10,026 nucleotides of DNA from an uncultured Lachnospiraceae bacterium. Lineage in GTDB: Bacteria > Bacillota > Clostridia > Lachnospirales > Lachnospiraceae. The notes beneath the pieces are model-generated. The model saw nothing but the letters and a program-made list of their open reading frames with translations. It was not told the DNA's origin and did not search any database. This document shows, piece after piece, positions 148-8,760 of this stretch (within the stretch, counting starts at the first letter, position 1; each line of letters opens with the position of its first letter). Location: assembly GCA_945788595.1 (NCBI GenBank), contig CALZMS010000016.1, positions 1 through 10,026 of the forward strand. Reading direction: 5' to 3'. The position numbers were made by a program, and so were the translations under genes.

Positions 148-822
148 TTACTCCACTGCCTCTGCAATATACATGGATGTCAGCAGGGTAAATACGTATA
201 CCTGGATCAGTCCGTCGAAGAAATCAAAATACAACGAGAACGGAACCGGTACGATGATCCGCACCAGACCCTCGATCATACACATGATGATAAATGCGCC
301 GAGCACGTTACCGAACAGTCGCATGCAAAGGGATACAGGTTTGATAAAAAGCTCCAGAATGTTCATGGGCAGCATGGCGGGCATGGGTTCCAGAAAACTG
401 TGCAGCCAGCCTTTCACGCCTTTTGTCTGAATTCCGGCCATCTGTACGAGTACGATGGACATAACAGCCAGAGCAGCCGTCACTGTCAGATCTTTCGTCG
501 GCGGCTTGATGCCAAATACATAAAAGATATTCGCCAGTGCGACATAGCAGGCAATGGTCATCATGTACGGTACATACCTTTTTCCCTTCGGACCCAGAGG
601 ACCCTCATAGAATTTCTGCAGCCAGAGTACAAAAGACTCTACCGCCAGCTGACGTCTGGAGGGATTCTCTACACTGAATCCGCTTGTCAAAATTAGTCCC
701 AGCACCAGCAAAAGGATACTGATGAACAAAGTAACAATGACCGATTCATGAATTCCAACACCGCCGATATTGATGACTTCACATTCCAGTTCTTCCTGAA
801 TCGTTGAAATATAGGCTTCCAA
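148..822 (-). CDS. atpB: ATP synthase Fo subunit a
   Basis: Subunit a is the membrane stator that forms the two ion half-channels against the c ring. The 224-residue product is hydrophobic, with about five to six membrane segments, and is of normal family length for Firmicutes. The key helix (about 154-180) carries the essential arginine, R168, in an SLCMRLFGN context. The last helix (about 203-221) carries Q207 in GLIQVYVF, the usual partner of that arginine. The start is a TTG at 820-822, preceded by an AAGGAAG Shine-Dalgarno at about 832-838; no in-frame ATG lies nearby. It is followed by atpE on the same strand, and the rest of the operon should continue to the left. No atpI is visible upstream, where a DnaA-box-rich non-coding region begins. 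I could not place a convincing promoter for this operon. Confidence 0.95.
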   Translation of the reverse strand: MEAYISTIQEELECEVINIGGVGIHESVIVTLFISILLLVLGLILTSGFSVENPSRRQLAVESFVLWLQKFYEGPLGPKGKRYVPYMMTIACYVALANIFYVFGIKPPTKDLTVTAALAVMSIVLVQMAGIQTKGVKGWLHSFLEPMPAMLPMNILELFIKPVSLCMRLFGNVLGAFIIMCMIEGLVRIIVPVPFSLYFDFFDGLIQVYVFTLLTSMYIAEAVE

Positions 823-1033: not shown

Positions 1034-1123
1034 GTTTTTCACCGCTGTCAGAAAGACAAAATGTCAACTGCTATTTTGAATTTTTTGTCGATTTATCCAT
1101 TTTTCACAGAACATCTGTTTGTC

Positions 1124-1147
1124 TTTTGCGTTATGTAAATCGCAAAA
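1124..1147. repeat. Perfect 7-bp inverted repeat beside the DnaA boxes
   Basis: TTTTGCG at 1124-1130 is followed, after a 10-base spacer, by its exact complement CGCAAAA at 1141-1147. It ends 15 bases before the first DnaA box. It could be a protein-binding dyad or a small hairpin; there is no T-run suited to a terminator. Confidence 0.55.
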
Positions 1148-1162
1148 AACTGGGGATTATTT

Positions 1163-1261
1163 TGTGGATAATGTGGATAACTCTGTGTATAACCGAATTT
1201 TCCCTGTTTTTACAGGATTTTATGTGTGGATAACCCGATTTGTTTTCCACACTTATCGACA
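1163..1261. promoter_or_regulatory. DnaA-box cluster (candidate origin, titration or regulatory site)
   Basis: DnaA binds the 9-mer TTATCCACA. Its exact reverse complement TGTGGATAA occurs at 1163-1171, 1172-1180 (directly abutting the first) and 1225-1233. One-mismatch copies are TGTGTATAA at 1184-1192, TTTTCCACA at 1243-1251 and TTATCGACA at 1253-1261. A further TTTTCCACA lies at 1421-1429, inside the start of the next gene. Three perfect copies of a 9-mer in 71 bases cannot reasonably be chance. The first four boxes by position (three perfect, one with a mismatch) share one orientation and the later ones are opposite. The AT-rich stretch at about 895-970 could be an unwinding element. No dnaA, dnaN or rpmH is in the window, so an origin is only one option; a DnaA titration site or DnaA control of the atp operon are the others. 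Confidence 0.8.
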
Positions 1262-1410
1262 GTGCTTATTTTACCTCGACATTTTTTTGTGCAGTTTCCA
1301 CAATCTGACAATTCATGGGGAATTTTCTGTAATTTCAACCTTTCGTCATACAACAGTCTGTCCTGTCATACATTGCTATCAAAGCACATTGATATAGGAA
1401 CGGGCTTATA

Positions 1411-3168
1411 TTGAAAAATATTTTCCACAGAAAAAACATACCTTTCCTTTTTTCCGTTGCTGTAATTATTCTCATTTTATCGGCATCCATAACCTTTCGT
1501 TGTCTTTTTAACGACAGTCTCGCTTTTAACCGCTTTACGGAAATTTACTGCCGACAGATTCTGTCTCAGGACACCCTTTCTTTACATTACACGCTGGCAG
1601 ATCCCAAAGCCCGGGGAATACAATGCGATACATTCACCCTGGGAACTTTTCCTTCCATAGATAATACTGCTGCAAAGGCAGCCCTTGAAAATCAGTCTTC
1701 CCTTCTTTCCGCCTTTAATCCGGATTGCCTGTCTGACGAGCAGGCGCTTATCCTTCATATCATGAGCTGGCAGAATTCTCTGGAACAAAAGCTGCAGGAC
1801 GGCTGCATCTTCCTGGAACAGCCCAGCTCCAGCCTCGGTATACAGGCGCAGCTGCCCATTCTTCTTGCGGAATACGAATTTCGCTGCCGGGAGGATATCG
1901 ATACATATTTTCTTCTTCTTGAGGATACAGACCGTTATCTTCGGGAATACCTTTCCTGGCAGCAGGCAAAAATTGTTCTGGGCGTTGCGCCTGCCACAGA
2001 AACACTGGACAGTCTGATCGACCAGTGCCGGGAATTTCTCGGAGAGGAAAGCCGCGAACACTTTTTACAGACTGTTTTTGTCTCACGATGCCAGGACTGC
2101 GAATTTCTGTCCGAACAGGAGCGGCTTTCTCTGGCGGACCGGCATTTTTCTCTGCTGACAGAGCATGTTTTTGCGGCCTACCATACGCTGATCACAGGCT
2201 TTCAGGCCATGCAGAATGAGGCCGGAGCCCTTGCCGGCCTGTGTTCGTATCCTGGCGGACGCGACTTTTATGAAGCCTGTGTGCAGTATACCTGCGGTAC
2301 GGATCTCTCACTGGAGGAAATACGCCTGCGCCTGTACACCCAGCTTATCTCCGATATAACCGCAGTCAGACAGCTTGATCTTTCTGCGCTGAACGAATCC
2401 ACCCTCTATGACCAGATGGATGCCGCCGATATGGTAACAGCGCTGCGTGAGCGTATAAAAACAATGTTCCCTGAGGGACCGGAAGTCTCGTGGACCCTCA
2501 AGGAAATTGCGCCGGAGCTTGCTTCCTACGCAAGTCCTGCCTTCTATATGGTTCCTCCCACGGATGCGCTTACAGAAAACACCATCTATCTGAATCCCCA
2601 GAATGAACTCACCGGATTTTCCCTGTATACAACGCTGGCTCATGAAGGTTTCCCCGGTCATCTGTACCAGAATACCTATTATTACAGCCAAAAACCGCCT
2701 CTGATCCGGCGGCTTTTGTCCTTTGGCGGCTACACAGAAGGCTGGGCCACCTACACGGAATCTCTGATCTGCGAGCTTGCCGGTCAGACATGGGATGGCG
2801 CTAAGGCTTTCTGGCTGGACCGTTCCCTGAATCTTTGTGTCGCCTCTCTTCTGGATATCGGTATCCATGGGGAAGGATGGGATATGGACAAAGCGTCAGG
2901 TTTTCTGACCGATCTTGGCATCACGGATCCTCTTGTCATCAAAGAGCTGTATCAGTATATTGTGGAAAATCCGGGAAATTATCTCCGCTATTATCTGGGC
3001 TGTCTTTCCTTTCTGGACCTTCGGGCACAATGCAAAAAGGAGCTGGGGGATAACTTTTCTCTGACAGAATTTCACCAGGCAGTTCTGGATGCAGGTCCGT
3101 GTCCCTTTTCTATTCTGGAAAACTGGGTACGAAGCCGTCTGGGACTTTCGTCTGCGCAGTTTCCCTGA
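1411..3168 (+). CDS. DUF885-family membrane-anchored metallopeptidase-like protein
   Basis: The 585-residue product belongs to the DUF885 family, placed in the zinc-metallopeptidase MA clan. The signature is HEGFPGH at residues 411-417 (H411, E412 and H417 as presumed zinc/catalytic residues) followed by YTEGWATY at 441-448, whose E443 is the likely third ligand. Residues about 10-30 form one hydrophobic segment after a basic start, so the protein is probably a signal-anchored or secreted enzyme acting outside the membrane; no clear lipobox is seen. The start is a TTG at 1411-1413 with AGGAA at 1396-1400. An in-frame stop just upstream (1390-1392) and the N-terminal membrane segment support it. 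The substrate is unknown. A DnaA-like box (1421-1429) lies within codons 4-7. The gene stands alone; its 3' end overlaps an antisense MarR remnant. Confidence 0.88.
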   Translation: MKNIFHRKNIPFLFSVAVIILILSASITFRCLFNDSLAFNRFTEIYCRQILSQDTLSLHYTLADPKARGIQCDTFTLGTFPSIDNTAAKAALENQSSLLSAFNPDCLSDEQALILHIMSWQNSLEQKLQDGCIFLEQPSSSLGIQAQLPILLAEYEFRCREDIDTYFLLLEDTDRYLREYLSWQQAKIVLGVAPATETLDSLIDQCREFLGEESREHFLQTVFVSRCQDCEFLSEQERLSLADRHFSLLTEHVFAAYHTLITGFQAMQNEAGALAGLCSYPGGRDFYEACVQYTCGTDLSLEEIRLRLYTQLISDITAVRQLDLSALNESTLYDQMDAADMVTALRERIKTMFPEGPEVSWTLKEIAPELASYASPAFYMVPPTDALTENTIYLNPQNELTGFSLYTTLAHEGFPGHLYQNTYYYSQKPPLIRRLLSFGGYTEGWATYTESLICELAGQTWDGAKAFWLDRSLNLCVASLLDIGIHGEGWDMDKASGFLTDLGITDPLVIKELYQYIVENPGNYLRYYLGCLSFLDLRAQCKKELGDNFSLTEFHQAVLDAGPCPFSILENWVRSRLGLSSAQFP

Positions 3169-4551: not shown

Positions 4552-5475
4552 TCAAAAAACATCCTCAAAATATTTTCTATATAGAAACTCCGCATACTCC
4601 CTGAGTTCTTTCAGCGAATCATTGTAACGGGAAAGCAATCTTTTCCCCTCCGGAGTCAGCCTGCTTTTGCCCCCTTTTGCCCCTCCCTGACTGCGTATCA
4701 GCAGAGGCTGTGAAAGCTGCGACTCCAGCGTACGGATCATATTCCAGCCGGAGGAATAGGAGATCTGCATGCGCTGACACGCGGTCCGCACAGACTGGCT
4801 CTCCTCGATCAGCTGCAGAAGCATCATCATTTTTTCATCCAGAAAAGGAACCTCTCTGGCAAAGGAAAGCGAGACTACCGGCCGCACCAGCTGCTGGTTG
4901 TGATACTGCAAAAGCGCCTCGAAATCCTCCGGCGTATCCGCATCCCGAAGAATTCCCGGATCATTGACCGGAACCGTCTTCATCTCTGTATCCAGACGGC
5001 TAAAAGCCCCCTGCAGTCCGCCTTCTCCCGTATCCTTCAGGATCTGCTCCACCTGCTCTGCGCCGATCAGCACCGGATGCCCTGTCTCCTGCCCGCAGAC
5101 AGGGCAGGCCAGCCGATGACCACAGCGAAGCAGTGTTTTTACAGTGGATACGGTAAAAAGCGGTATATCCACCGGCGTAAATAATATCACATCGCATTTA
5201 TCCTTCAGATAGGCCAGTCCGATCCTGGCAGAGTCAAACATCTGGGTCGTCTCATACTTTTCATTCCGAAGAAAAACCACGCCCTCACGGCTCAGATGAC
5301 GTTCCAGTGTAGCCGCCTGATAACCGGTCACAACAACGATCCTGTTCACTCCTGCCTGCTTCAGCGTAGCGATCACCCGCTGCGCAACAGATATGGAACC
5401 AATATTCAGCATCGGCTTAAACTCACCCATTCTGGACGACATTCCCGCCGCAACGATCACTGCGCCTGTCTTCAT
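4552..5475 (-). CDS. Fusion: MocA/MobA-like molybdopterin nucleotidyltransferase + ModE-type winged-helix domain
   Basis: This 307-residue protein has two parts. Residues 1-190 are a MobA-like NTP transferase: the nucleotide loop AAGMSSRMGEFKP at 9-21, metal-binding PVDIPL at 101-106, GHPVLIG at 132-138 and DADTPED at 178-184. Such enzymes attach CMP or GMP to molybdopterin; the adjacent Mop-type enzyme uses the cytosine form, so a CTP:molybdopterin cytidylyltransferase (MocA) role is likely. Residues 206-290 match the N-terminal DNA-binding domain of ModE: a LysR-like helix-turn-helix (about 225-250) and the ModE-typical GGAKGGKSRLTPEGKRLL at 264-281. The ModE molybdate-binding (TOBE) part is absent. 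The ATG at 5473-5475 has GGAGGA at 5481-5486 and a strong promoter. The stop overlaps a TTG of the downstream SpmB-like frame. From memory it resembles the DVU_1551-type NTP transferases; whether the fusion is usual there needs checking. Confidence 0.9.
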   Translation of the reverse strand: MKTGAVIVAAGMSSRMGEFKPMLNIGSISVAQRVIATLKQAGVNRIVVVTGYQAATLERHLSREGVVFLRNEKYETTQMFDSARIGLAYLKDKCDVILFTPVDIPLFTVSTVKTLLRCGHRLACPVCGQETGHPVLIGAEQVEQILKDTGEGGLQGAFSRLDTEMKTVPVNDPGILRDADTPEDFEALLQYHNQQLVRPVVSLSFAREVPFLDEKMMMLLQLIEESQSVRTACQRMQISYSSGWNMIRTLESQLSQPLLIRSQGGAKGGKSRLTPEGKRLLSRYNDSLKELREYAEFLYRKYFEDVF

Positions 5476-5500
5476 TTTCTTCCTCCACCGTCATCACAAA

Positions 5501-5646
5501 GCGACTTGCAAAATAATATACTTCCATTATATCGGAAACCTCTGGCTTTTCAATGTGTTTGTGAATTATTTATCATTTTTTTATGGTTATCTTCCGTTTT
5601 CTGTATATTTTATTCGATAAGCGACTGTTATTTTATTGTAAGTTGC
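5501..5646. repeat. Repeated element in the divergent promoter region (candidate operator)
   Basis: The 11-mer GCGACTTGCAA (5501-5511, plus) recurs as GCAACTTACAA on the minus strand (5646-5636), differing at two positions, and the match continues into AT-rich flanks. AAGCGACT also occurs exactly at 5499-5506 and 5619-5626. The 5621-5626 and 5641-5646 copies form an imperfect inverted repeat, GCGACT-N14-AGTTGC, that runs into the -35 box of the rightward promoter. The 5501-5511 copy lies just after the leftward transcript start. Placement at both promoters suggests a shared operator. The ModE-like domain encoded next door is an obvious but unproven candidate binder. Confidence 0.5.
5526..5553 (-). 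promoter_or_regulatory. Promoter of the MocA-ModE fusion gene
   Basis: On the minus strand, TTGAAA (5548-5553) and a perfect TATAAT (5526-5531) are 16 bases apart. The predicted start is near 5519, about 45 bases before the ATG. A copy of the repeated element described at 5501-5511 lies just downstream of that start, a position where a bound protein could block transcription. Confidence 0.8.
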
Positions 5647-5671
5647 TATTTTTACCAGTAAACAGTAAAAT
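5643..5671 (+). promoter_or_regulatory. Promoter of the small ORF-mop transcript
   Basis: TTGCTA (5643-5648) and TAAAAT (5666-5671) are 17 bases apart on the plus strand. The -35 box overlaps one arm of the imperfect inverted repeat at 5621-5646. The leader to the first ATG (5717) is about 40 bases and AT-rich. Alternative -10 matches (TATTAT, TATAAA) lie a few bases further right, so the exact start is uncertain. Confidence 0.55.
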
Positions 5672-5716
5672 TATTATATAAATATTGTTATTTTTAACAA
5701 AAAGGGGGCATGTGTC

Positions 5717-5965
5717 ATGGACGAATCTTGTTTTGAAATTTCTGCAAAGCAGGTGACCATCGAAGTCACGGACGAAGCGACAGGCAGAGTATTTCGCAGG
5801 GAGCTGCCCATTGATTTTTACGAAAACGCCAATTTTCTGCGGCTGCAGGGAGAAAACCTGGACGGAAGCGTTTCCCAGCTGGTTTTCTACAGTGCCAGAG
5901 GATTGCAGCGACTTAAGGATCTGACCGGCCACGGCGCCGATCACGACAATTGCGGCACCCATTGA
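5717..5965 (+). CDS. Small protein of unknown function upstream of mop (82 aa)
   Basis: I do not recognise this protein. The 82-residue product starts at ATG 5717-5719 with AAGGGGG at 5702-5708. It is soluble, with no membrane segment. Residues 10-60 look like beta strands (alternating polar/hydrophobic, for example QVTIEVTDE and RRELPIDFYE). The C-terminal tail has H72, H76, C79 and H82, which could bind a metal; C5 is the only other cysteine. It lies 47 bases before mop on the same strand, without a terminator between, so the two are probably co-transcribed. A role in Mop maturation, cofactor or metal handling, or electron transfer is possible from position alone. Normal codon use and a good ribosome binding site support it as a real gene. 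Confidence 0.75.
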   Translation: MDESCFEISAKQVTIEVTDEATGRVFRRELPIDFYENANFLRLQGENLDGSVSQLVFYSARGLQRLKDLTGHGADHDNCGTH

Positions 5966-6012
5966 CCCAGCCCCGTTTGTTTAAAAATCTCAAAAAATCA
6001 GGAGGAAACGAC

Positions 6013-8760
6013 ATGATCAAAAAGACACTTATCATCAACGGTGTTACCCGCTCACTGCTGGTAAACGAAGACGATACTCTTGCGTCTGTCCTTCGTGAAA
6101 GACTGCTGCTCACCGGCTGTAAGATCGGCTGCGGCGAAGGACACTGCGGTGCTTGTAATGTCATTATGGACGGAAAAGTTACACGCTCCTGTATCGTAAA
6201 AATGAAACGCGTTCGCGATAACGCAGAGATCACAACTATCGAAGGTGTCGGTACTATTTCCGACATGCACCCACTGCAGGTAGCCTGGATGGCTTACGGC
6301 TGCGCACAGTGCGGTTTCTGTTCTCCGGGATTTATCATCAGTGCCAAAGTGCTTCTGGACAACAATCCGAATCCCACCCGTGAAGAAGTCCGCAACTGGT
6401 TTGACAAAAACCGCAACCTCTGCCGCTGTACCGGTTACAAGCCGCTGATCGATGCCGTTATGGCTGCCGCTGCCGTTATGCGCGGCGAGATGAGCAAAGA
6501 AGATCTCGTATTCAAACCCACCGGCGACAGCATCGTCGGTACATCCTATATTCGTCCGTCAGCAGCACAGAAGGTTACCGGAACCTGGGATTTCGGTGCT
6601 GACGACGCGTTAAAGATGCCGGAAAACACCCTGCGTCTGGCTCTGGTTCAAGCAGAAGTATCCCACGCTAACCTGAAAGGTGTGGATACCTCCGAAGCAG
6701 AAAAAATGCCCGGCGTATTCAAGATCATTACCGCCAAGGATGTTCCCGGAAAGAACCGTATCAACGGTCTTGTCATGCTTCCGCTGAACAACAAATGCGA
6801 CGGTTGGGATCGTCCGATCCTCTGTGATGAGAAGATCTTCCAGTTTGGCGATGCCATCGCCATCGTTGCTGCCGATACAGAGGCTCACGCAAGAGCTGCT
6901 GCTGCCGCAGTCAAAGTAGATCTGGAAGTACTTCCGGCTTACATGAATGCCATGGACGCTATTGCTGAGGATGCTATTGAAATCCATCCCGGCACACCGA
7001 ATGCCTACTATGAGACCAACTGTATCAAAGGACCGGACTTTGACTTTGACAGTGCTCCCAACGTTGTGGAAATTGAGAGCTACTGCTCCCGTCAGCCCCA
7101 TCTGCATCTGGAACCTGACTGCGGTTATGCCTATATCGATGAAGATGGCATGCTGACCATCCACTCCAAATCCATCGGTATCCATCTGCACATGCCGATG
7201 ATCGCCGACGGTATCGGCATCCCCATGGAGAAGCTGCGTATGGTACAGAACCATTCCGGAGGTACCTTTGGTTACAAATTCTCCCCGACAAACGAGGCTA
7301 TCCTTGGTGTGGCTGCTCTCGTATGTCAGAGACCTGTATCTCTTGTATTTAACCAGTTCCAGAACATTACCTATACCGGTAAACGTTCACCCGCTTTCAT
7401 GCACATCAAGCTGGCAGCGGATGAAAAAGGTAAACTTCTTGGTCTGTGGGGCGACAACTATGTGGATCACGGTCCCTACTCCGAGTTCGGCGATCTGCTG
7501 ACCCATCGTCTGAGTCAGTTCGTAGGCGCCGGATATCATATCCCGACCATCAGAAACAAGAGTACTACCGTATTTACCAACCATGCCTGGGGCTCTGCGT
7601 TCCGTGCCTACGGTTCACCGCAGTCCTTCATGGGTTCTGAGATTGCCATCGATGTTCTGGCAGAAAAAATGGGCATGGATCCCTTCGATATCCGTGAGCT
7701 GAACTGCTACAAGGAGTCTGAAGGTTCTACCATCCCCACCGGCTACAAACCGGATGTATACTGTCTGGAAGAAATGTACAAACAGGCTCGTCCGCTGTAC
7801 GAAGCCGCAAAGAAACGTGTAGCAGAAAAGAATGCCGCATCCGACGGCAGATATAAATACGGTATCGGTGTTTCCTCCGGTGTTTACGGCTGCGGTCTTG
7901 ACGGTGTGGACTCTTCCCAGGCCTATGCCGAGCTGAATCCGGACGGCACGGTAACCATGTACGCCTCCTGGGAGGATCATGGCCAAGGTGCTGATATGGG
8001 TGTCCTTGTATCCGCTCATGAGACTCTGCGTCAGGCAGGCATCCAGCCAGAGCAGATCAAGCTGGTGATGAACGATACCAAATTCACCCCGAACTCCGGT
8101 CCTGCCGGCGGTTCCCGAAGCCAGGTAATGTCCGGCAACGCCTGCCGTATTGCCGCTGAAAATCTCCTGGCCGCCATGAGAAAAGAAGACGGCACTTACC
8201 GTACCTACGACGAGATGAAAGCCGAAGGTATCGATACAAAGGTTCAGGGCCAGTGGGTTGCCAGCTATTGCGCAGAGCATCCGGTAGATCAGGCCACCGC
8301 CCAGGGCGATCCGTTCTCCGTTTATATGTACACACTTTTCCTTCCGGAAGTATGTGTAGATACCCAGACCGGTAAAGTTAAAGTGGAGAAATTCACCTGC
8401 GTTGCCGACGTTGGTACCATCATGAACAAGCTTCTGGTAGACGGTAACTTCTACGGCGGTCTCGTTCAGGGTATTGGTCTGGCACTGTCTGAGGATTTCG
8501 AAGATCTGTCCAAACATACATCCTTAAAGAACTGCGGTATCCCGTACCCCAACGATGCTCCGGATGACATCGAACTGCATTATGTACAGACCTACCGTCC
8601 GGAAGGACCTTACGGTGCTGCAGGCTGCGGTGAGGCTCCGCTGGACGCTCCGCACCCGGCTATCCTGAACGCTATCTTTAACGCAACAGGCGCACGCATC
8701 ACCCGTATCCCCGCAAGACCAGACGTTGTTCTGGCCGCGCTGAAGGAGCTGGAGAAATAA
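6013..8760 (+). CDS. mop: Single-chain molybdenum hydroxylase, aldehyde oxidoreductase (Mop type)
   Basis: The 915-residue enzyme belongs to the xanthine oxidase family and closely resembles Desulfovibrio gigas Mop (about 907 aa), which oxidises aldehydes to carboxylic acids. Residues 1-80 hold a plant-type [2Fe-2S] cluster (C40, C45, C48, C60) and 81-160 a second one (C100, C103, C137, C139), the same numbering as I recall for D. gigas. The molybdenum domains follow from about 175, with no FAD domain. Motifs include GGTFGYKF (F419, F423), FRAYGSPQ (R531, Y533), GQGADMG, AGGSRSQ and the catalytic glutamate E874 in GCGEAPL. The cofactor is expected to be molybdopterin cytosine dinucleotide. 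The ATG at 6013 has AGGAGG at 6000-6005; an in-frame ATG at 5950 would overlap the upstream gene and add 21 unrelated residues. The natural substrate cannot be read from the sequence. Confidence 0.95.
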   Translation: MIKKTLIINGVTRSLLVNEDDTLASVLRERLLLTGCKIGCGEGHCGACNVIMDGKVTRSCIVKMKRVRDNAEITTIEGVGTISDMHPLQVAWMAYGCAQCGFCSPGFIISAKVLLDNNPNPTREEVRNWFDKNRNLCRCTGYKPLIDAVMAAAAVMRGEMSKEDLVFKPTGDSIVGTSYIRPSAAQKVTGTWDFGADDALKMPENTLRLALVQAEVSHANLKGVDTSEAEKMPGVFKIITAKDVPGKNRINGLVMLPLNNKCDGWDRPILCDEKIFQFGDAIAIVAADTEAHARAAAAAVKVDLEVLPAYMNAMDAIAEDAIEIHPGTPNAYYETNCIKGPDFDFDSAPNVVEIESYCSRQPHLHLEPDCGYAYIDEDGMLTIHSKSIGIHLHMPMIADGIGIPMEKLRMVQNHSGGTFGYKFSPTNEAILGVAALVCQRPVSLVFNQFQNITYTGKRSPAFMHIKLAADEKGKLLGLWGDNYVDHGPYSEFGDLLTHRLSQFVGAGYHIPTIRNKSTTVFTNHAWGSAFRAYGSPQSFMGSEIAIDVLAEKMGMDPFDIRELNCYKESEGSTIPTGYKPDVYCLEEMYKQARPLYEAAKKRVAEKNAASDGRYKYGIGVSSGVYGCGLDGVDSSQAYAELNPDGTVTMYASWEDHGQGADMGVLVSAHETLRQAGIQPEQIKLVMNDTKFTPNSGPAGGSRSQVMSGNACRIAAENLLAAMRKEDGTYRTYDEMKAEGIDTKVQGQWVASYCAEHPVDQATAQGDPFSVYMYTLFLPEVCVDTQTGKVKVEKFTCVADVGTIMNKLLVDGNFYGGLVQGIGLALSEDFEDLSKHTSLKNCGIPYPNDAPDDIELHYVQTYRPEGPYGAAGCGEAPLDAPHPAILNAIFNATGARITRIPARPDVVLAALKELEK

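Follow-up and report, generated by a model that had tools for sequence, protein, structure and literature searches.

What is a dense cluster of DnaA boxes doing between atpB, a gene of the ATP synthase, and a gene for a DUF885 protein? The question was raised by the window, i.e. the whole stretch of 10,026 nucleotides from an uncultured Lachnospiraceae bacterium that was analysed here, for which the original prediction had offered three answers: a displaced or split oriC, a site that titrates DnaA, or regulation of ATP synthase expression by DnaA. The three exact and three one-mismatch boxes that it had described between 1163 and 1261 were all found in place (Table 1). Such a cluster is indeed improbable by chance, as three exact boxes were never obtained when the intergenic region (823-1410) was put through 5000 Markov shuffles. 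Over the window, 12 DnaA-box matches with at most one mismatch were counted for 2.35 expected, a number attained by none of 200 shuffles. Exact TTATCCACA words were counted 31 times in the assembly to which the window belongs, and the same word reversed was counted 5 times. A genome scan for further clusters of this word, which had been suggested as a check, left this cluster as the only site of the assembly with three exact boxes inside 200 bp. GC skew, once computed, was negative over most of the window and kept its sign at the cluster, in agreement with the earlier impression by eye that the G/C bias does not switch there. The statement that no dnaA lies nearby holds for the window but is uninformative, the assembly being 57% complete (291 contigs, of which the window is contig 16) and no dnaA having been found anywhere in it.

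Table 1. Position in the window of the DnaA boxes, of the other parts of the conserved element and of the neighbouring genes.
Feature	Position	Strand	Evidence
Whole element by comparison, from the upstream TGCACAAA to the TTGACA block	1055..1293	-	profile R1 and positional conservation
Upstream motif TGCACAAA, moderately conserved	1286..1293	-	alignment of copies
Accessory one-mismatch box, TTATCGACA	1253..1261	+	sequence match
Accessory one-mismatch box, opposite strand, TTTTCCACA	1243..1251	+	sequence match
Box1, TTATCCACA, exact	1225..1233	-	sequence match
Weak box2, TTATACACA, one mismatch	1184..1192	-	sequence match
Box3, TTATCCACA, exact, abutting box4	1172..1180	-	sequence match
Box4, TTATCCACA, exact	1163..1171	-	sequence match
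GAAC-ATCT-GTTT dyad (GAACATCTGTTT), LexA-type operator candidate, 42 bp past the tandem	1109..1120	.	sequence match
Conserved TTGAC[AT] block, TTGACATTTTGTC (TTGACA at 1062-1067)	1055..1067	-	positional conservation
atpB, ATP synthase subunit a; neighbour, outside the conserved element	148..822	-	PF00119, 5.8e-40
DUF885 protein; neighbour	1411..3168	+	PF05960, 1.7e-87

Further along the window (4552-8760), a protein combining a MobA-like NTP transferase and a LysR-type HTH (PF12804, PF00126) was observed near a 936-aa open frame. This frame presumably encodes a protein resembling molybdenum hydroxylase.

Conservation of the boxes upstream of atpB in close relatives had been proposed as a check. 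Three other genomes of the same genus were available, and atpB was found in two, both with the cluster upstream of it; the refuting outcome named beforehand, loss of the boxes in close relatives, thus did not arise. All six boxes are the same as in the window in G002, whose AtpB is 97% identical, and the order and spacing of box1, weak box and tandem are the same in G001 (AtpB 73% identical). The third genome, G003, which is 84% complete, yielded no atpB and no match to the strict box pattern described below. The two accessory boxes, kept in G002, are absent from the family consensus. Of 80 atpB loci compared, these two were the only ones with exact boxes in the 1.2 kb upstream; none was found in the other 78, whose AtpB is at most 57% identical, 6 of the 78 having less than 1.2 kb of upstream sequence.

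The box arrangement itself is widespread. A strict three-box pattern (box1-53-box3-9-box4) was present in 40 of 397 family genomes, representing 35 of 334 genera, and a reversed control pattern in none. A profile, R1, was built on sequence only from 33 sequences, one of them the window, and gave scores of 66 to 121 bits for 98 of 99 copies; the exception (L171, in an hpf-secA context) reached 48.9 bits, and other DnaA-box clusters in 29 sources stayed at or below 44 bits. The best 150 R1 matches listed (65 bits or more) came from 150 different genomes of the 346 searched, so that at least 150 of the 346 carry the element, in one copy each at this threshold. Counting as copies the 319 of 346 genomes matching R1 at an E value of 0.001 was rejected, because the model also catches other DnaA-box clusters; at this E value no match was found in the remaining 27, and the element may thus not be universal in the family. 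In a class-wide sample of 343 genomes, all 8 matches above 50 bits belonged to Lachnospiraceae, and the best scores outside the family were 48.7 and 47.5 bits. Judged by these sequence comparisons, the cluster represents a short non-coding DNA element of which many Lachnospiraceae have a copy. A limited literature search on DnaA boxes and Lachnospiraceae retrieved plasmid work only, and in another, combining DnaA boxes with four genera of the family, the term "DnaA boxes" was absent among the matches listed.

The tandem by itself (TTATCCACATTATCCACA) was present in 166 of 299 family genomes. These sites could not be treated as one kind, as 9 of 20 fetched stretches belong to a second cluster, which adjoins a Mur ligase gene and/or an operon with dnaD/dnaB_2, dnaI-like and prs genes (assigned with Pfam in L158 only, and by sequence similarity in the rest). 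It was seen at L158:7721-7894, L162:7294-7487, L165:7225-7242, L167:5695-5767, L169:7869-8041, L170:7579-7760 and L172:7388-7572, and would place helicase-loader genes under DnaA. In G001 (loci L155 and L157), contig C64 ends inside a tandem DnaA-box pair and contig C233 starts near one, with the same gene families as L158; the two ends are possibly one locus split by the assembly. Another locus, L134:1438-1949 (genome G195), held 22 exact DnaA boxes in a stretch of about 510 bp, a number unmatched at the other loci listed with it.

The plan of the conserved element is constant: box1, 44 bases that include a weak box, the abutting box3 and box4, the dyad 42 bp further on, then TTGACA. The window copy conforms to it (R1 match at 1088-1283 on the minus strand, 92.4 bits), with its TTGACA at +95 from the tandem. 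The anatomy was counted on 66 fetched copies outside the R1 training set, drawn from the longer match list, one of which (L291) is also a strict-pattern hit. With 0 or 1 mismatch allowed, box1 was found 52 to 54 bp ahead of the tandem in at least 61 of the 66, and the tandem in 60 of the 66; the strictly fixed spacing of 53 bp assumed for box1 was relaxed to 53 +/-1 after these copies had been measured. In 37 of the 66, the weak box, at -12 from the tandem, had at most one mismatch. RAAC-N4-GTTY lay at +41 to +45 past the tandem in 60 of the 66, for 0.1 expected in the interval, a count that is partly circular since the R1 training copies contained the dyad. The TTGAC[AT] block, which is outside the R1 model, was present in 60 of the 65 copies with enough sequence (3.7 expected), 56 times at +103 to +108. 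In an alignment of 33 copies (the window, G001, G002 and 30 of the 40 strict-pattern copies), AA-N5-GTT, then TG, was invariant in all 33, meaning that sequence unused for selection is conserved too.

Conservation between these motifs is low in the family consensus, which argues against a conserved non-coding RNA gene or leader in which the DnaA-like words would be incidental. An AT-rich conserved intergenic block with a TTGACA-like word could be expected of such a gene, but these words are complete DnaA boxes whose spacing is fixed, and no Rfam match was found in 700-1500, even at E values up to 1. We regard the RNA explanation as highly improbable.

The genes next to the element change from genome to genome. 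When the downstream neighbours of the 99 copies were compared with 13 reference proteins, DUF1858 was found 33 times, hpf 27 times, trmB 5 times and atpB 3 times; an opposing NlpC/P60 gene was found in 3 cases, and 28 copies gave no reference match. The latter include WecG-type glycosyltransferase genes and convergent V-type ATP synthase D genes (identified with Pfam in one example each). The contexts seen are thus DUF1858-mecA, hpf-secA, trmB, WecG-type, V-ATPase and atpB, the atpB/DUF885 context being seen only in the genus of the window. As the neighbours vary, it is the element itself that is conserved, not its link with a gene, and on the sequences compared the atpB neighbourhood is a peculiarity of this genus among the loci seen. 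DnaA control of ATP synthase, as suggested originally, is therefore not supported as the conserved function of the element, which adjoins other genes elsewhere; ATP synthase control was rejected as the general function on account of this varying context.

A broader version of this proposal is that DnaA, with LexA, acts as a local transcription factor, the element being a promoter-regulatory region of whichever gene lies downstream; in this genus the gene would be atpB, and the replication state would tune ATP synthase. The element does point to a gene start about 250 to 520 bp beyond the start of box1 in the genus of the window and in many DUF1858, hpf and trmB contexts, its TTGACA looks like a -35 box, and uvrB of E. 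coli is described as jointly regulated by DnaA and LexA (PMC6015884). Against this, the downstream gene differs between genomes, the 78 other atpB loci carry no exact boxes upstream, and TTGAC was discarded as a promoter -35, no common -10 following it across the gene contexts. In some genomes, moreover, the next gene is convergent, as in L283, where a trxB-like gene comes before the element and a V-ATPase D gene ends towards it. Varied and partly convergent neighbours are hard to reconcile with a promoter-only role, and we consider regulation of the downstream gene to be possible but unlikely.

Two side observations concern these contexts. At L283:3201-5267, the genes for subunits D and B of a V-type ATP synthase run convergently towards the element (Pfam, L283 only), and the trxB- or NlpC-flanked loci L290, L310 and L205 have genes resembling the V-ATPase D and B genes of L283, also convergent on it. 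With the F-type atpB, this makes two ATP synthase neighbours, possibly through shared synteny near the origin alone. In addition, TTTGTCGAAAAA lies about 80 bp past the tandem in L194, L202, L209 and other DUF1858-context copies, a word that we take to resemble a Spo0A box. The Spo0A-like TGTCGA/TCGACA was present in 23 of 65 non-training copies (2.1 expected), and since 17 of the 23 are in the DUF1858 context, it is probably local to that context.

The position of the element relative to dnaA could be measured in 13 genomes with a strong copy and dnaA on one contig. The distances ranged from 36 to 470 kb (G148, 35.6; G038, 38.9; G386, 49.4; G141, 50.8; G298, 65.4; G088, 67.1; G273, 68.9; G417, 103.5; G194, 141.9; G105, 181.8, its largest contig being taken as circular; G267, 237.2; G347, 371.2; G393, 470.5 kb) and exceeded 100 kb in 6 of the 13, the set being biased towards short distances by the draft genomes it contains. 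In 17 further genomes, dnaA and the element were on different contigs, giving no distance. The element was co-oriented with the replication fork in all 13 placed genomes. Nine of these 13 genomes consist of a single contig, and all 9 had the element at 1.4 to 15.3% of the chromosome from dnaA; G325, G415 and G383, single-contig genomes with listed strong copies, were left out of the placement, dnaA being absent from the contig start. Because the copies share ancestry, no probability is attached to these position counts. In the single-contig genome G049, a divergent copy (48.9 bits) lies 984 kb (14%) from dnaA and by its coordinates points against the fork. By analogy with these relatives, we infer that the window's own copy is origin-proximal.

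Could the element then be a displaced, second or split replication origin? Its strong boxes are dense, it is usually origin-proximal in relatives, and in G298 no other exact-box cluster of the 300 kb examined, that at dnaA included, is as dense (the element and the dnaA cluster were equal in G088, and the element was the less dense in G273). Yet the cumulative GC-skew minimum, examined within 280 to 400 kb around the origin in each genome, fell at dnaA in three relatives out of three, 64 to 69 kb from the element: at 3,833,406 in G088, adjoining dnaA, for an element at 3,767,729; at 127,719 in G298, for dnaA at 126,161 and the element at 191,596; and at position 20 in G273, for dnaA at 101 and the element at 68,873. 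No minimum was found at the element in these three, and the window is likewise devoid of a skew switch. In the same genus as the window, G001 keeps an ordinary dnaA locus with boxes of its own, arranged differently from those of the element. The clostridial bipartite oriC at rpmH-dnaA-dnaN shares DnaA-box clusters with the element, but lies at dnaA with its unwinding region; as described in PMC7561715, unwinding occurs at dnaA-dnaN in C. difficile and is proposed to occur there in other clostridia as well. In the relatives, by contrast, the element is away from dnaA/dnaN by 36 to 470 kb (13 genomes), and by 984 kb in G049. An origin at the element was thus rejected on GC skew in the three relatives, and we give this explanation almost no credence.

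The dyad past the tandem matches the clostridial LexA operator type GAAC-N4-GTTT, a type of dyad that recurs upstream of lexA in family genomes. In C. difficile, LexA uses GAAC....GTTT, as described in a study that measured the binding with surface plasmon resonance (PMC4234289). Among 20 lexA loci from 20 family genomes, RAAC-N4-GTTY was found in the 200 bp that precede the first possible start codon of lexA in 15, often several times, for a density of one per 1.2 kb over all 20 loci; the 5 loci lacking it include those of the window's own genome (L341) and of G001 (L352). The flanks differ, with C before most GAAC-type lexA boxes and A before most element dyads, so that recognition of the element by LexA, although plausible from its sequence, is unproven. 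The presence of this LexA-type dyad suggests that DNA damage may feed into the element. A limited literature search on LexA, DnaA box and oriC retrieved the uvrB promoter work alone (PMC6015884). This promoter resembles the element in having DnaA and LexA sites together, and is that of a repair gene, whereas the element adjoins varying genes.

A position near, not at, the origin and the many different gene neighbours make control of initiation likelier than control of ATP synthase genes. Taken with the single copy, the fixed boxes and the operator-like dyad, they point to a DnaA control locus of the kind of datA, DARS or the DBCs, which by analogy fits best. Our preferred interpretation, probable though well short of certain, is that the element is a single-copy, usually origin-proximal, non-coding cis element, on which DnaA binds three strong boxes and a weak one, and which most likely controls free or active DnaA for oriC. 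DnaA would assemble on these boxes at their fixed spacing, and the element would thereby set the amount of free or active DnaA available to oriC, a role also ascribed to datA, DARS and the Bacillus DnaA-box clusters. As the element usually lies only a few percent of the chromosome away from oriC, it would be copied soon after initiation; its dosage would double early, and DnaA could be titrated, or its state changed, at the time when re-initiation must be blocked. The LexA-type operator, at a fixed distance, would let DNA damage alter the DnaA complex. Among the three answers proposed at the outset, a titration or DnaA-control site fits best; titration is the simplest action and suits the position, sequence alone being unable to separate it from ATP hydrolysis or reactivation of DnaA.

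In Streptomyces, a DnaA-box cluster outside oriC is thought to titrate DnaA. The element is a non-coding DnaA-box cluster outside oriC, single copy and of fixed arrangement, and in relatives it is, like the Bacillus DBCs, close to oriC without being part of it. In Bacillus subtilis, removal of all six DBCs outside oriC led to early initiation, partly relieved by one restored cluster (Okumura 2012, as summarised in PMC5295017); the review itself terms the role of the Bacillus DBCs not significant. Compared by description, the Lachnospiraceae element differs from these six clusters in being one single-copy element of fixed geometry that carries a LexA-type dyad as well as a TTGAC block, and in belonging to another family. 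With datA, DARS1 and DARS2, known in detail in E. coli (PMC5295017), it shares a non-coding nature, DnaA boxes combined with a site for a second DNA-binding protein, and a conserved chromosomal position (PMC5295017, PMC4585315, PMC5010248). The second protein is IHF or Fis at the E. coli loci, whereas it is a LexA-type candidate dyad that adjoins the boxes here. The element also recalls the E. coli titration model, in which boxes enriched near the origin are proposed to titrate DnaA, although this enrichment is a broad density as presented in PMC12371093, and the element is discrete.

DnaA and LexA sites on one element of fixed geometry, independent of its genes and near the origin, lead us to a more speculative proposal, which we put forward tentatively and expect to be wrong more often than right: a device specific to the family that wires SOS into initiation, in which LexA cleavage after damage would switch the element between two DnaA-binding states, stopping or permitting new rounds. 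Should the preferred interpretation hold, the Lachnospiraceae would be a further lineage with dedicated DnaA-control DNA, in the form of a discrete, conserved DnaA element of fixed architecture. Studies of how initiation is set in this family, and possibly of its link to DNA damage, would also gain a defined target, about 200 bp long.
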